Assembly (NCBI GenBank): GCA_017403125.1
Contig: JAFQOR010000020.1
Location: 62,001 to 126,000 of the forward strand
From: Alistipes sp.
GTDB lineage: Bacteria; Bacteroidota; Bacteroidia; Bacteroidales; Rikenellaceae
DNA length: 64,000 nucleotides
Reading direction: 5' to 3'
Shown: positions 1,991 through 62,719 of the stretch, piece by piece
Layout of the letters: each line of letters begins with the position of its first letter
Position numbering within the stretch: the stretch's first letter is position 1
Translations under genes and position numbers: made by a program
Notes under the pieces: model-generated
Told to the model about the DNA's origin: nothing
The model's database searches: none
What the model saw: the letters and a program-made list of their open reading frames with translations, nothing else

Positions 1991-4900
1991 ATGAACATGT
2001 TACAGGAGCTTGTCCGCAAGACCAAACGTGCGGTCGAGTTGAAGAAATGTTTGGAACAAGAGGGCTCTACCGTCCATCTGGAACAGATGGTCGGCGGGGC
2101 CTATTCGCTTTATGCGGCTACGACTGTCGAGCGAATGGGGGGTATTCATATCTTCCTTGCCGACGACAGAGATAGTGCAGCCTACCTACTGAACGACCTC
2201 TATGAGTTGTTGGACGAGGAGCGTGTGCACTTCTTTCCGTCGGGCTACAAACGCTCGATAAGCTACGGCGCCGAGGATCAGCAGGGTGTGGTGCAGCGCA
2301 CCGCGACGTTGAGTGCTATTGCTTCGCATGGCAAGGGCTATTTGGCTATCTGCACCTATCCCGAGGCGTTGGCGGAGTGTGTTGTGGCACGCAGCGACAT
2401 GGAGCAGCTGTCGCGCCGGATAAGGGTGGGCGATAGGGTGCAACAGTCCGAGCTTGTGGAGTGGCTGCAAAAGATGGGTTTCCAGAGGGTCGATTTTGTC
2501 TATGAGCCGGGTCAGTACTCGGTGCGTGGCGGTATTGTCGATGTCTTTTCGTATGTCGAGTCGAAGCCCTATCGTATCGATATGTTTGGCGACGAGGTGG
2601 ACTCGCTGCGTCGCTTCGATATATCGAGTCAGCTCTCCGAGGAGCGGCCTACCGAGATAGATATTGTCCCCAACACCATGCGCGACGAGGAGTCGGGCGA
2701 GAGGGTGTCGTTGGCAGGTTATGTGCGCGGAGGTGTTTGGTGGCTCTCGGATGGCGACTACGCTCTTCGCAAGCTTATGGATGTGCGTACCAAGCTCTTG
2801 GAGCAGGCTTCGGATGCGGACGATGCCCGCCATAGGGCAGAGCGTTTGACGTCGCGTACGAGGCTTTTGGGCGACCTTGCGGGGTGCAGCATAGCGCTTC
2901 TCAAAGATAATATCAAGGAGCGCCGTGCCGATTGCAGCGTGCGCTTCAATCTCGCGCCACAACCCTCGTTCAACCGCAACTTCGAGATGCTTGCCGACGA
3001 CATACTCTGGAACACGGAGCGTGGCTATCGATGCTTCATCCTCTCGCATAACAAGGCTCAAATAGAGCGTCTTACGAATGTTTTTCATCAGGTGGGACGC
3101 CGCAGGGTCGAGTTCGAGTCGAGTTCTACGCTGCTACACGATGGCTTTGTGGATAACGATGCCCGACTGTGTCTCTACCCCGACCACCGCATCTTCGACC
3201 GCTACCAACGCTACCGCATACGTGGCGAGATAAAGCGCGACGAGCAGATGACCGTTGCCGAGCTCAACGCCTTGAAGGTTGGCGACTATGTGGTGCATAT
3301 CGACCACGGTGTAGGTCGCTTCGGAGGCTTGGTCAAGCTCAACGAGAATGGTCGCACGAAGGAGGCTATAAAGCTCATCTACAAGGATAACGACATCCTC
3401 TTTGTGAATGTTCACGCCCTGCATCGCATATCGCGTTACAAGAGTGGCGAGGGCGAAGCTCCAAAGATATATAAGTTGGGCAATGGGGCGTGGCAGAAGC
3501 TCAAAGCCACGACCAAGAGGGCGGTTAAGGATATATCGCGCGAACTTATCGCGCTCTATGCCAAGCGCAAGGCGTCGCAGGGCTATGCCTTTTCGGCTGA
3601 TGGCTATTTGCAACAGGAGTTGGAGGCGTCGTTCAAGTGGGAGGAGACCCCGGACCAGCAGAGCGCCATTGCCGCTATCAAGCGCGATATGGAGTCGCCA
3701 CAGCCTATGGATAGGTTGGTGTGTGGCGACGTGGGCTTTGGCAAGACCGAGGTGGCTATACGCGCCGCCTTTAAGGCGGCTGTCGATGGCAAGCAGACGG
3801 CGGTGTTGGTGCCCACGACAATCCTCGCGTTGCAACACTATCGCTCCTTCTCGGAGCGTCTTCGCGACCTCCCTGTCACGGTGGAGTATCTGAATCGCAC
3901 GAAGTCGGCAAAGGAGGTGCGCCGCATCTTGGAGGAGCTGAAACAGGGCAAGATAGATATTCTCATCGGCACGCATAAGATGCTTGCCAAGCAGGTCGAG
4001 TTTCACGACCTCGGATTGCTTGTTATCGACGAGGAGCAGAAGTTTGGCGTGGCTGCCAAGGAGAAGCTCACATCGCTCTCGGTATCGGTTGATACTCTTA
4101 CGCTTACGGCTACGCCCATACCGCGAACATTACAGTTTTCGTTGATGGGGTCGCGCGATATGTCCATCATCTCGACACCGCCACCCAACCGTCAGCCCAT
4201 TGTCACCGAGTCGCACCTTTTCAGCGAGGATGTCATACGCGATGCCATCGAGGAGGAGCTGTCGCGCGGTGGTCAGGTCTATTTTGTTCACAACCGCGTC
4301 GAGGACCTCGTGACGTTGCAGGGGCTTATCACGCGCCTCTGCCCCAAGGCTCGTGTGGCTGTGGGTCACGGACGTATGCCTGCCGAGCAACTCGAACGCC
4401 TCATCATGGACTTTATCTATGGCGAGTTCGACGTCTTGCTCGCCACGACAATCATCGAGAACGGCATCGACATAGCCAACGCCAACACCATCATCATCAA
4501 CGACGCCCACCGCTATGGTTTGAGCGACCTGCACCAGCTTCGAGGACGTGTGGGGCGTAGCGACCGCAAGGGCTTTTGCTATCTGCTCTCGCCGCCCGAC
4601 GAGCTTATCGGGGGTGATGCACGCCGTCGTCTGCGCGCCATCGAGGAGTTCTCGGATTTGGGCTCGGGCTTCAACATCGCTATGCAGGACCTTGATATAC
4701 GTGGTGCGGGTAACCTGCTGGGTGCCGAGCAGAGTGGATTTATTGCTGACGTGGGTATCGAGACCTACCAGAAGATATTGCAGCAGGCAATCTCGGAGCT
4801 ACGTCGCGAGGGTCTCGATACGTCGGGTCTGTCGCAGGCCGAGAACGATGCCATGAAGGACGTATCGTTTGTCGATGATGCAACCATCGATATTGATGTA

Positions 4901-60175: not shown

Positions 60176-60382
60176 CTACTTGGCGATGATATGCACCTCG
60201 CGTGCCTCGACCTTCCCTTCGGTGGTTGTCGTAATCTCATACTCCACGTGCTGGTTGTACTTCAACGTGCGGAAACCATCGATGCAAAGCGCGGTGTAGT
60301 GCACATATACATCCTCGCCATTGTCGCCCGTAATAAAGCCATAGCCCTTGCGACTGTCGAACCACTTGACTCTGCCCTTCAT
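60176..60382 (-). CDS. Cold-shock domain protein
   Basis: A 68-aa single CSD. RNP1 KGYGFITGD and RNP2 VYVHYTAL are clear. It binds single-stranded RNA or DNA; it may or may not be cold-induced. A promoter is visible on the minus strand (60420-60450). Confidence 0.93.
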   Translation of the reverse strand: MKGRVKWFDSRKGYGFITGDNGEDVYVHYTALCIDGFRTLKYNQHVEYEITTTTEGKVEAREVHIIAK

Positions 60383-60478: not shown

Positions 60479-60509
60479 TTGTGGGAATCGAAAAAAAATT
60501 GTATATTTG
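60479..60509 (+). promoter_or_regulatory. Promoter of the lipoprotein/radical SAM pair
   Basis: TTG at 60479-60481, 20 bases, TATATTTG at 60502-60509, 40 bases before the lipoprotein ATG. Confidence 0.7.
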
Positions 60510-60548: not shown

Positions 60549-60929
60549 ATGAAAAGCAAATTGAAGATTGCACTGTTGGCTCTTTTGGGCTTCTCGACTG
60601 CAAGTTGCGCATCGAAGAAGGCTGCCAAGAAGTCTATGGATAGGGATTCGCAGAGTATCGAGACGGATAGCATCGATACGCGCATTATGCTTATGTATGG
60701 TGTTCCGGGTCCGGATGGCAACCGTATTATGACCGAGGAGGAGGTGCGAGAGGGCGTTAGCGCAGCGCAGGACGCGGCTACGGTGAAGCCCGATAGTTTG
60801 GATTTGCGCCCCGCGTTGATGTATGGCGTGCGCTTCCCTGATGGCTCGACGGAGCGTCCGAAGAGTAGCGATGCTACCGATGAGAAGCTTGTTGAGGGTG
60901 AGGCAGAGAGGGCTGCATCGGAGGAATAA
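60549..60929 (+). CDS. Small lipoprotein of an rSAM/lipoprotein system
   Basis: A 126-aa protein with a lipoprotein signal (MKSKLKIALLALLGFSTASC, Cys20). The mature part holds a twice-repeated motif, LMYGV-x-x-PDG, at residues 48-57 and 90-99, each preceded by an acidic Ser/Asp stretch (ETDSIDTR, KPDSLDLR). I take it to be a member of the small lipoproteins that accompany TIGR04133-type radical SAM enzymes (TIGR04134-like). The repeated motif is the likely modification site (inference). The radical SAM gene follows 15 bases after its stop. Confidence 0.75.
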   Translation: MKSKLKIALLALLGFSTASCASKKAAKKSMDRDSQSIETDSIDTRIMLMYGVPGPDGNRIMTEEEVREGVSAAQDAATVKPDSLDLRPALMYGVRFPDGSTERPKSSDATDEKLVEGEAERAASEE

Positions 60930-60944
60930 AAATTGGCTCGACGA

Positions 60945-62021
60945 ATGAAAGGTAAGCGTTTAGGTCTGCGCAAATATCTCGGACTCAAACTCTTCAAGGG
61001 GCTTTACGATGAGGCTATCGAGCATCATGAGTTGCGTACACTCTTTTGGGAGTGTACGCTTCGTTGTAATCTGTCGTGTCGTCATTGTGGTAGCGATTGC
61101 AGGGTAGATGTGGCGGAGCAGGATATGCCTCTTGCCGACTTCTTGAAGGTGCTCGACGAGGAGGTTACGCCGCATGTCGATCCGAGGCGTGTGCTCATCA
61201 TCTTCTCGGGTGGCGAGGTCTTGGTGCGTCGCGACTTGGAGGAGGCGGGACGCGAGGTTATGCGACGTGGCTATATGTGGGGTATGGTGACCAACGGCAT
61301 GGCGCTCACGCCTCAGCGTCTTGATGCGTTGGTAGATGCCGGTTTGAGGTCTGTTTCTATCAGTTTCGATGGCTTCGAGGATATACACAACCACATACGT
61401 CGCAACCCGTTGAGCTTCGAGCGTGCACGTCAGGCAGTGCAGAGCATACGTCGTGTCGATGGACTGCTCTACGACGTTATAACGTGTGTGACGCCCGCCC
61501 TTATGGAGCGTTTAGACGAGTGGAAGGAGTTTCTCATTAGCGAGGGCATAAGCCATTGGCGAATCTTCTCCATCTTCCCGGCAGGACGTGCCAAGAGGGA
61601 TGACTCGCTGCATCTTAACGTGGAACAGTACCGCCAACTTATGGAGTTTATTCGCCTCACGCGAAAGGAGGGACGCATAAATTTGAGCTATGCATGTGAG
61701 GGCTTCCTCGGTGGCTACGAGACCGAAGTTCGTGACCACTTCTACATGTGCACTGCCGGAGTTTCGGTGGCCTCTATTCGTGTTAATGGCGATATTTCGG
61801 GTTGTACGAGTGTGCGTGGCAACTACACGCAGGGCAATATCTACAAGGATAGATTCTGGGATGTGTGGCAGAACCGTTTTCAGCCCTTCCGCAATCGCGA
61901 GTGGACCAAGATAGATGAGTGTAGGGATTGTAAGGTTTGGGACTTCTGTCGCGGTGGAGGTATGCACCTACGCGACGACGAGGGCAAACTGATGTATTGT
62001 CACTACCGAATGTTAAAGTAA
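60945..62021 (+). CDS. Radical SAM/SPASM enzyme of an rSAM/lipoprotein system (TIGR04133-like)
   Basis: A 358-aa enzyme. The SAM-cluster motif CxxxCxxC is CNLSCRHC (Cys41, Cys45, Cys48). IFSGGEVLVRRDLEE is the GGE motif, and the C-terminus has a SPASM-like auxiliary-cluster region with CTSVRGNYTQGN and CRDCKVWDFCRGGG and a late Cys (MYCHYRML). It should form a thioether or other crosslink in a peptide partner (family knowledge). An in-frame TTG at 60933 is an alternative start 3 bases after the lipoprotein stop. Confidence 0.85.
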   Translation: MKGKRLGLRKYLGLKLFKGLYDEAIEHHELRTLFWECTLRCNLSCRHCGSDCRVDVAEQDMPLADFLKVLDEEVTPHVDPRRVLIIFSGGEVLVRRDLEEAGREVMRRGYMWGMVTNGMALTPQRLDALVDAGLRSVSISFDGFEDIHNHIRRNPLSFERARQAVQSIRRVDGLLYDVITCVTPALMERLDEWKEFLISEGISHWRIFSIFPAGRAKRDDSLHLNVEQYRQLMEFIRLTRKEGRINLSYACEGFLGGYETEVRDHFYMCTAGVSVASIRVNGDISGCTSVRGNYTQGNIYKDRFWDVWQNRFQPFRNREWTKIDECRDCKVWDFCRGGGMHLRDDEGKLMYCHYRMLK

Positions 62022-62065
62022 CGAAGATTGGGTATAGAGAGTTGCATCGTTGGTGGAGATTACTG

Positions 62066-62719
62066 TTAAATCTCCACCAATCTGTTTTTAATGGCATAGA
62101 CCACAAGGTTTGCCGTATTCTTGCAGCCCGTCTTCTCCAAGATGTTGGCACGATGCTTATCAACCGTGCGTTTCGATATGAAGAGCTTGTCGGCAATCTC
62201 CTGATTCGATAGTCCGCGACACACCTCCACCAAAATCTCTATCTCACGGTCCGACAAGGCGTCCTCGTCACTCGTGGCATCTATGGGTGTTACACTCATG
62301 TTGCGTGTCAGCGTGCGCATCAGCGCCTCACACACGTAGCTGTCGCCCTCCGAAACCGCATCGACCGAGGCATATACCTCCTCGATATCCGAATCTTTGA
62401 GCACAAAGCCCGAAGCACCACTCTCCATCATCTGCGAGTAGTACTGCTCGTCGCCATACATCGATAGTGTTATGATGCGCAGTCTATCATTTAGGCGTAG
62501 CGCACGACGAGTAGTCTCGCAGCCGTCGATGCCGGGCATCGATATATCCATGAAGACAACATCTACGTCGAGCGCAGGCAACGCCGCAAGAAACTCCTCG
62601 CCACTGCCCATGTCGGCAACAACGTCGAAGTCCTCGCGCATCGAGAGCAGTCCTCGAAGACCCGTACGAAAGAGCGTGTGGTCATCAACGAGAGCTATCT
62701 TTACTCTTCTTTGTGTCAT
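62066..62719 (-). CDS. NarL/LuxR-type response regulator
   Basis: A 217-aa protein. The receiver domain has the acidic pair LVDDHTL, phospho-acceptor Asp in VFMDISMPG and the Lys in FVLKDSD. The C-terminal HTH is LSDREIEILVEVCRGLSNQEIADKLFIS-like with KRTVDKHRANIL. Its start overlaps the upstream kinase gene by 35 bases. The target promoters are unknown. Confidence 0.93.
   Translation of the reverse strand: MTQRRVKIALVDDHTLFRTGLRGLLSMREDFDVVADMGSGEEFLAALPALDVDVVFMDISMPGIDGCETTRRALRLNDRLRIITLSMYGDEQYYSQMMESGASGFVLKDSDIEEVYASVDAVSEGDSYVCEALMRTLTRNMSVTPIDATSDEDALSDREIEILVEVCRGLSNQEIADKLFISKRTVDKHRANILEKTGCKNTANLVVYAIKNRLVEI

Follow-up and report, generated by a model that had tools for sequence, protein, structure and literature searches.

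A TIGR04133 radical SAM/SPASM enzyme and its lipoprotein partner in Alistipes: a conserved X-Tyr-Gly core and a proposed splicease-type maturation

What does a radical SAM enzyme do beside the gene of a lipoprotein, and on which part of that lipoprotein would it act? The question is raised by a two-gene unit on the + strand of a 64,000-nucleotide stretch of Alistipes DNA (the window), in which a lipoprotein gene comes first and is followed by a radical SAM/SPASM enzyme gene ending at 62021. A sequence-only reading had assigned the two genes to the computationally defined TIGR04133/TIGR04134 pair and had proposed a duplicated LMYGVxxPDG motif as the modified site. We compared the pair with its relatives, with control lipoproteins and with known radical SAM systems.

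The gene pair and its surroundings

The enzyme contains CTLRCNLSCRHC and a SPASM region, and its Pfam scores bear out the original call of a CxxxCxxC radical SAM enzyme with a SPASM-like tail (PF04055 Radical_SAM, 64.6 bits with a cut-off of 29.5; PF13186 SPASM, 37.9 bits with a cut-off of 21.5). It is 358 aa long from the ATG at 60945, while an in-frame TTG at 60933 is separated from the lipoprotein stop codon by 3 bases; because position 1 of the TIGR04133 model aligns to residue 12 of the TTG reading, the ATG is the likelier start. The enzyme half of the TIGR04133/TIGR04134 assignment held, at 564.9 bits (564.6 in the genome search; curated cut-off 425). The other half failed: TIGR04134 gave no match to the window's lipoprotein up to E = 1 (NCBIfam; curated cut-off 39.8 bits), and the genome's sole TIGR04134 match up to E = 10 lies on contig C2, away from this locus, at 14.1 bits. 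No NCBIfam or Pfam model matched the lipoprotein over its cut-off.

The lipoprotein begins with a signal peptide and lipobox, MKSKLKIALLALLGFSTAS-C20, and its mature part has a net charge of -8. As first described, this 126-aa protein carries the motif twice, each copy after a Ser/Asp stretch (DSQSIETDSID and KPDSLD; Table 1). It belongs to a short acidic class, for which we collected 57 members.

The candidate promoter was matched by eye to what we take to be the Bacteroidota consensus; a sigma-70 scan gave no match on the + strand. A convergent response-regulator gene lies beyond the terminator-like hairpin, and the region holds 3 hairpins compared to 1.8 expected in shuffles. A divergent CspA-like start is found upstream of 49 of the 57 short-class loci and of none of the 82 other loci scanned. 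Early in the enzyme gene, a near-perfect palindrome (61034-61059) is kept in close relatives; it is partly forced, since the region codes for LFWEC.

Table 1. Features of the locus, in window coordinates
Feature	Position	Strand	Basis
Divergent cold-shock (CspA-like) gene	60176..60382	-	neighbour, not an established part
Candidate Bacteroidota-type promoter, TTG then TATATTTG	60479..60509	+	by-eye match to assumed consensus
126-aa lipoprotein, proposed substrate, short acidic class	60549..60929	+	ORF, charge
Signal peptide with LLGFS (60582-60596), proposed maturase leader	60549..60605	+	L13 and G14 invariant in 44 aligned
Lipobox cysteine C20	60606..60608	+	sequence
Motif copy 1, LMYGVPGPDG, Met-Tyr-Gly at 60693-60701	60690..60719	+	Y50 and G51 invariant in 44/44 aligned
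Motif copy 2, LMYGVRFPDG, Met-Tyr-Gly at 60819-60827	60816..60845	+	sequence
TIGR04133 radical SAM/SPASM enzyme, proposed splicease	60945..62021	+	profile score, tree
CxxxCxxC radical SAM cluster motif, then G-S-D-C	61065..61088	+	conserved in TIGR04133 rows
SPASM region, C273 to C356 (TTG numbering), Gly at 343 where the fourth Cys is usual	61749..62000	+	Pfam, cysteine alignment
Terminator-like hairpin 3' of the enzyme gene	62049..62081	+	hairpin scan

Conserved elements of the lipoprotein partners

In the family sample, 78 of 150 genomes have a TIGR04133 match over the cut-off; the order sample gave 60 of 295 and the phylum sample 2 of 345, one of these two being the window's own genome. 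By enzyme, the nearest relatives come from MAGs named Alistipes, Rikenellaceae and, once, Bacteroidales. The family is also present on plasmid records of Parabacteroides distasonis and Treponema saccharophilum (a Spirochaetota plasmid), and in both records the adjacent gene is annotated as 'radical SAM-associated putative lipoprotein'. At E up to 1e-100 the enzyme occurs in 64 of the 295 order genomes, and it is carried by 37 of the 39 order genomes that have TIGR04134 over its cut-off (hypergeometric P-value 3e-27, overstated because the genomes are related).

The fetched loci yielded 155 distinct TIGR04133-like enzymes, of which 3 lie at contig edges and 152 were scored. We found a lipobox ORF directly upstream of 139 of the 152, and in 135 of these 139 lipoproteins a YG follows the Cys; the exceptions are L109, L137, L126 and L181, the last with CYA in place of CYG. 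The upstream call did not require a YG, although a YG-bearing ORF was preferred among several candidates (5 of 139), and a rerun using only the nearest ORF again gave 135 of 139. By inspection, the 13 enzymes without such an upstream ORF have a YG lipoprotein in 7 cases and no adjacent lipoprotein in 6. These locus counts are not independent, because many of the loci come from one genus.

As controls, we used 90 lipobox ORFs from 40 stretches in ten of the genomes plus the window, and compared them to 137 partners, omitting L137 (a 178-aa lipoprotein unlike the rest) and L126 (a spurious ORF), both of which lack YG. A YG no more than 60 residues from the lipid-bearing Cys is present in 130 of 137 partners and 8 of 90 controls, and a YG followed after 1-3 residues by P, within the first 90 residues, in 129 and 1, respectively. 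A YG anywhere separates the two sets less sharply (135 of 137 versus 59 of 90), the controls being longer proteins.

The residues around YG depend on the class. In the short class, the residue before Tyr is M and the residue after Gly is V, each in 56 of 57 members, while P stands at +5 in 53 of 57. The 78 other partners have C (27), E (15), M (13), K (7), V (6), A (5) or rarer residues before Tyr, and T (35), S (12), V (11), I (6), M (5) or P (4) after Gly, with P at +3 in 68; one (L141) reads KYGGP, with a further Gly after YG. In 25 of the 137 partners, X is the lipobox Cys itself (CYG).

The conserved core across TIGR04133 loci is therefore X-Tyr-Gly. LMYGV-PDG, which had been raised as a possible core, is a local form, since both its P position and its residue before Tyr vary between classes. 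The motif's proposed role as modified site carries over to X-Tyr-Gly; its repetition is no general feature, and we rejected the repeat as the key to the system. Two full MYGV copies occur in only 4 of the 57 short-class proteins (the window's, L009, L012 and L013), so that the duplication is real but local. Some relatives repeat the PFPDG part alone, and genomes G130 and G143 each have two short-class matches in one frame.

When 44 of the 57 short-class proteins are aligned, M1, L13, G14, Y50 and G51 are the sole invariant residues. Across the 57 relatives, the tyrosine is encoded by TAC in 29 and TAT in 28, and the glycine by four codons, as is the valine. Because synonymous codons vary at both Tyr and Gly, selection acts on these residues at the protein level. 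We consider Tyr-Gly very probably the modified site. None of the 57 short-class partners has a Cys beyond C+1, which ruled out thioether chemistry for this class.

Of the 150 family genomes, 43 carry the short class; of the 22 genera sampled, one has it (both at E up to 1e-6). Its gene adjoins a TIGR04133 gene in 41 of these 43 genomes, with coordinates compared by eye; G099 and G135 are the exceptions. At L043, L045 and L049, two lipoproteins judged TIGR04134-like by eye and a third of the short class all lie upstream of a single enzyme, a layout suggesting that the short class arose by duplication within the operon.

We scored a second element, an LGF patch, over the final 16 signal-peptide residues. 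The pattern [LMIA]LGF is present in 72 of 137 partners, compared to 0 of 90 control lipoproteins, and strict LLGF in 58 of 137; LG followed by F, L, V or I is present in 91 of 137 partners and 3 of 90 controls. The CYG partners are weaker in this patch (LG[FLVI] in 6 of 25). Based on the alignment invariants and the control counts, the signal-peptide patch and Tyr-Gly are the two elements that have been kept. A separate candidate, a likeness of the short partner lipoprotein L079 to PG1828, was dropped; matches to NF050142 are mostly weak, start at the signal peptide and occur in 170 of 198 genomes, 6 of them over cut-off, with no tie to this system.

The enzyme and its relatives

All 98 TIGR04133 rows have the three CxxxCxxC cysteines, Cys 56 and Cys 255, and 97 of the 98 have Cys 185. 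In what we take to be the usual SPASM cysteine set (CX2CX5CX3C, then C), the fourth Cys is present in 0 of 98 TIGR04133 rows, compared to all 13 related rows and 7 of the 11 outgroup rows. Cys 56, 185 and 255 are absent from the six PlpX-like/TIGR03913 rows, while Cys 56 and Cys 255 each occur in 2 of the 7 other related rows and Cys 255 also in 6 of the 11 outgroup rows. Because its SPASM cysteines are altered, the enzyme probably binds its auxiliary cluster differently, and its chemistry may differ.

Besides TIGR04133, the NCBIfam models that best match the enzyme are TIGR03913 (131.7 bits), NirJ2, AhbD, TIGR04103 (106.4 bits, far under its cut-off of 725), TIGR04053 and MftC. We take TIGR04103 to be the family of PlpX, an assignment supported by the Nif11 and LYG neighbours of its Nostoc member. 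A 48-row tree places TIGR04133 with PlpX-like, TIGR03913 and related enzymes, apart from NirJ, TIGR04347, MftC, PqqE and others (UFBoot 96, SH-aLRT 89); TIGR04103 is represented in it by a single Nostoc plasmid enzyme, and not by the Pleurocapsa PlpX. In a first tree of 127 rows, the same branch received an SH-aLRT of 92, and the 13 related rows as one group received 95. The branching order within the TIGR04133/PlpX-like/TIGR03913 side of the 48-row tree is not settled, and the TIGR04133 branch is long (2.34).

The kinship to PlpX-type enzymes is also seen in individual residues. Gly-Ser after CxxxCxxC, W209, GxYE at 260-263 and R267 are common to the TIGR04133 and PlpX-like/TIGR03913 rows and rare in the 11 outgroup rows, in columns that were chosen for being shared. 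The other seven related rows have W209 and the Ser, and lack GxYE.

We inspected the neighbours of the 13 related enzymes, without a chance control, and found X-Tyr-Gly peptides beside 7 of them: Nostoc (LYG), Azospirillum (LYG/PYG), Aureibacter (PYG), L201, L203, Agathobacter (MYG) and L196 (KYG, six times). Beside the other 6 (L133, L197, L198, L204, L205 and L218), the same inspection gave no convincing X-Tyr-Gly peptide. The Nostoc TIGR04103 enzyme adjoins a Nif11-leader peptide ending in ALYGLPPELF, and a 71-aa protein occupies the position of PlpY.

Several of these neighbours are of interest in their own right. At L196, from the same order, a protein with six KYGYP repeats (2996-3644) follows the related radical SAM gene and may be a splicease substrate with several sites. 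On an Agathobacter rectalis plasmid (L097, 3700-3913), an unannotated short ORF ending in LFGPVMYGTGVRM, with its MYG in GPVMYGTGVRM, lies upstream of a radical SAM gene and is a possible spliceotide precursor. Close to their N-terminus, the DUF1843 or DUF1843-like peptides beside TIGR03913-type enzymes (L098, L096, L201 and L203) have X-Tyr-Gly or X-Tyr-Ala, and this suggests that these peptides, too, are acted on by spliceases.

Proposed mechanism, alternatives and known systems

According to the available text of two reports, PlpXY excises tyramine at X-Tyr-Gly, its natural sites being MYG and LYG, and a leader is said to be unneeded (PMC10533398, PMC11002830); the latter also places PlpX in IPR026482. 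The sequence-only reading had named no chemistry; taken together, the X-Tyr-Gly core and the enzyme's relatives point to a PlpX-type tyramine excision. A core that requires Tyr and Gly while leaving X free fits a reaction in which Tyr is lost and only the X side chain is retained. We infer that the enzyme is a splicease-type maturase with the lipoprotein as its dedicated substrate, a reading we judge to stand slightly above an even chance, and we lean by the same narrow degree towards tyramine excision at X-Tyr-Gly as its reaction.

The surroundings of the site can also be compared. The PlpXY splice tags in the available part of PMC10533398 include GAVAAGYGVVFPG, which, from its name (PlpA3-M5G), appears to be a PlpA3 site in which Gly stands for the natural Met. 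With the presumed Met put back (AAMYGVVFPG), it would agree with copy 2 (ALMYGVRFPDG) at 8 of 10 positions, with one gap. In FtsZ, PlpXY modified 2 of 16 tag placements, and both AVAAGYGVVFP tags, placed at the termini, remained unmodified (Table 1 of PMC10533398, available part). The failure of both tags indicates that PlpXY is sensitive to context and, because these tags are the ones most like copy 2, we lowered our estimate for tyramine excision.

Radical SAM enzymes work in the cytosol, and so the enzyme must work on a protein that has yet to be exported and keeps its signal peptide; the LGF patch thereby has a natural role as a leader. The enzyme would bind the pre-lipoprotein in the cytosol, probably via this patch in the manner of a RiPP leader, and would cut Tyr out of the chain, leaving a reactive group. 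Export and lipidation would follow, and signal peptidase II would remove signal and leader together. The mature product would be a flexible acidic tail, anchored in the envelope and bearing one or two alpha-ketoamides. That the signal peptide serves as leader is a tentative proposal, whose chances we put just short of even.

A plausible role for the tethered tail is the covalent inhibition of serine or cysteine proteases. We propose this role because the beta-residues of spliceotides are reported, in the available text of PMC10373908 and PMC11117315, to confer protease inhibition; it is speculative and rather unlikely to be correct.

The CYG partners bear on the chemistry. Splicing at CYG would turn the lipidated residue into a beta-amino acid, which we counted against the splicing reading; these 25 partners are either a problem for splicing or the source of a remarkable product. 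We know of no description of a lipoprotein N-terminus with a lipid-bearing beta-amino acid. No PlpY-like gene was seen beside the pair in the window. Together, the altered cysteines, the long branch, the PlpY result and the CYG partners weaken the exact chemistry more than they weaken the Tyr-Gly target.

Several other readings were weighed. The enzyme could crosslink the Tyr ring by a carbon-carbon or ether bond, giving a three-residue cyclophane between Tyr and the residue after Gly. We understand certain SPASM enzymes to do so on aromatic residues, and the nearly constant V after Gly in the short class would suit such a product. However, the residue after Gly varies in the other 78 partners, the Gly in KYGGP offers no side chain to join, and a crosslink to the third residue has no obvious need for a conserved Gly; we consider the crosslink decidedly unlikely. 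Alternatively, the enzyme could epimerise or otherwise alter Tyr, Gly or X without removing mass (a D-residue, dehydrogenation or hydroxylation). A short core is all that radical SAM chemistry at a backbone C-alpha requires, and the changed SPASM cysteines leave room for other chemistry, but a PlpX-family enzyme is among the nearest relatives in the tree, and PlpX, as far as the sources above extend, excises tyramine at the same X-Tyr-Gly. We assign this mechanism a low probability.

The lipoprotein could also be a regulator, partner or chaperone of the enzyme, with the motif as a binding site. Adjacency and co-inheritance fit any functional partnership, and six enzymes have no neighbouring lipoprotein. 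Yet unlike classes of partner (the short acidic tail, the longer TIGR04134-like proteins and short C-terminal tags such as L146) share X-Tyr-Gly and partly the patch, as substrates would, and related enzymes adjoin X-Tyr-Gly peptides of other families, which makes a non-substrate role very unlikely. The least probable reading, to which we give almost no weight, is an ordinary lipoprotein kept beside an unrelated radical SAM gene by synteny, with a repeat arisen by chance. The rarity of the duplication is consistent with it, as is the cspA synteny, which shows a stable neighbourhood within the genus. Against it, the pairing holds across the order sample and on a Spirochaetota plasmid, TIGR04134 and the enzyme occur together in 37 of 39 genomes, and this co-occurrence and the codon-level conservation are both strongly contrary.

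Tyramine excision gives this orphan family one precise mass prediction (-135.0757 Da per MYG). If it takes place here, the backbone editing described for RiPP precursors extends to membrane-anchored proteins in gut Bacteroidota, and reactive ketoamides would be placed at the bacterial envelope, a site of protease action. If the signal peptide doubles as leader, the choice of exported proteins by a radical enzyme in the cytosol would be accounted for. The whole scheme is that this lineage makes ribosomal alpha-keto-beta-amino acids in exported lipoproteins, with the signal peptide as leader, signal peptidase II as leader protease, a lipid-bearing beta-residue in the CYG members and surface-tethered covalent protease inhibitors as the outcome; we think it unlikely to be right in full.

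Our literature search, which covered few subscription papers, found none that names TIGR04133 or TIGR04134, none that joins a splicease with a lipoprotein, and none that joins radical SAM, lipoprotein, Bacteroidales and precursor peptide. The available part of PMC8939145 concerns graspetides and does not mention the TIGR04133/lipoprotein pair. The survey of Scott et al. (2022) may already cover the TIGR04133 family.

Among known systems, TIGR03913 (the GDL motif peptide-associated maturase) is the best other NCBIfam match of the enzyme, and its DUF1843 peptides carry LYG, PYG or AYG, with some LYA, MYA or MYM. Unlike the partners here, these are small tandem peptides without a lipobox, and TIGR03913 enzymes share 47-48% identity with the Nostoc PlpX-like enzyme, TIGR04133 enzymes much less. 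PqqE acts on Tyr and, like the enzyme here, is a SPASM radical SAM protein. MftC shares both properties (PMC8326336, available text). Both lie outside the TIGR04133/PlpX-like group in the tree and, in contrast to their substrates, Tyr here precedes Gly and so is not C-terminal, and the aligned short class has no invariant Glu. Lacking a C-terminal Tyr, the partner is a poorer fit to an MftC-type reaction.

PlpXY resembles the present system in its X-Tyr-Gly site, a similar surrounding core, a related SPASM enzyme and shared residues. It differs in that its substrates have a Nif11 or nitrile-hydratase-like leader peptide, whereas the partner here is a lipoprotein, and in that the TIGR04133 SPASM cysteines are different and the score is far under the TIGR04103 cut-off. 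The closest comparison is to the TIGR04133/TIGR04134 pair (rSAM_w_lipo / lipo_with_rSAM), which is an already known computational family: the window's enzyme is in TIGR04133, its lipoprotein gene is directly upstream and the partner carries X-Tyr-Gly. The window departs from that pair in its partner, a short acidic tail outside the TIGR04134 model with two MYG copies, from a class confined to 1 of 22 genera sampled. The link to spliceases and the signal peptide as leader are the new proposal.
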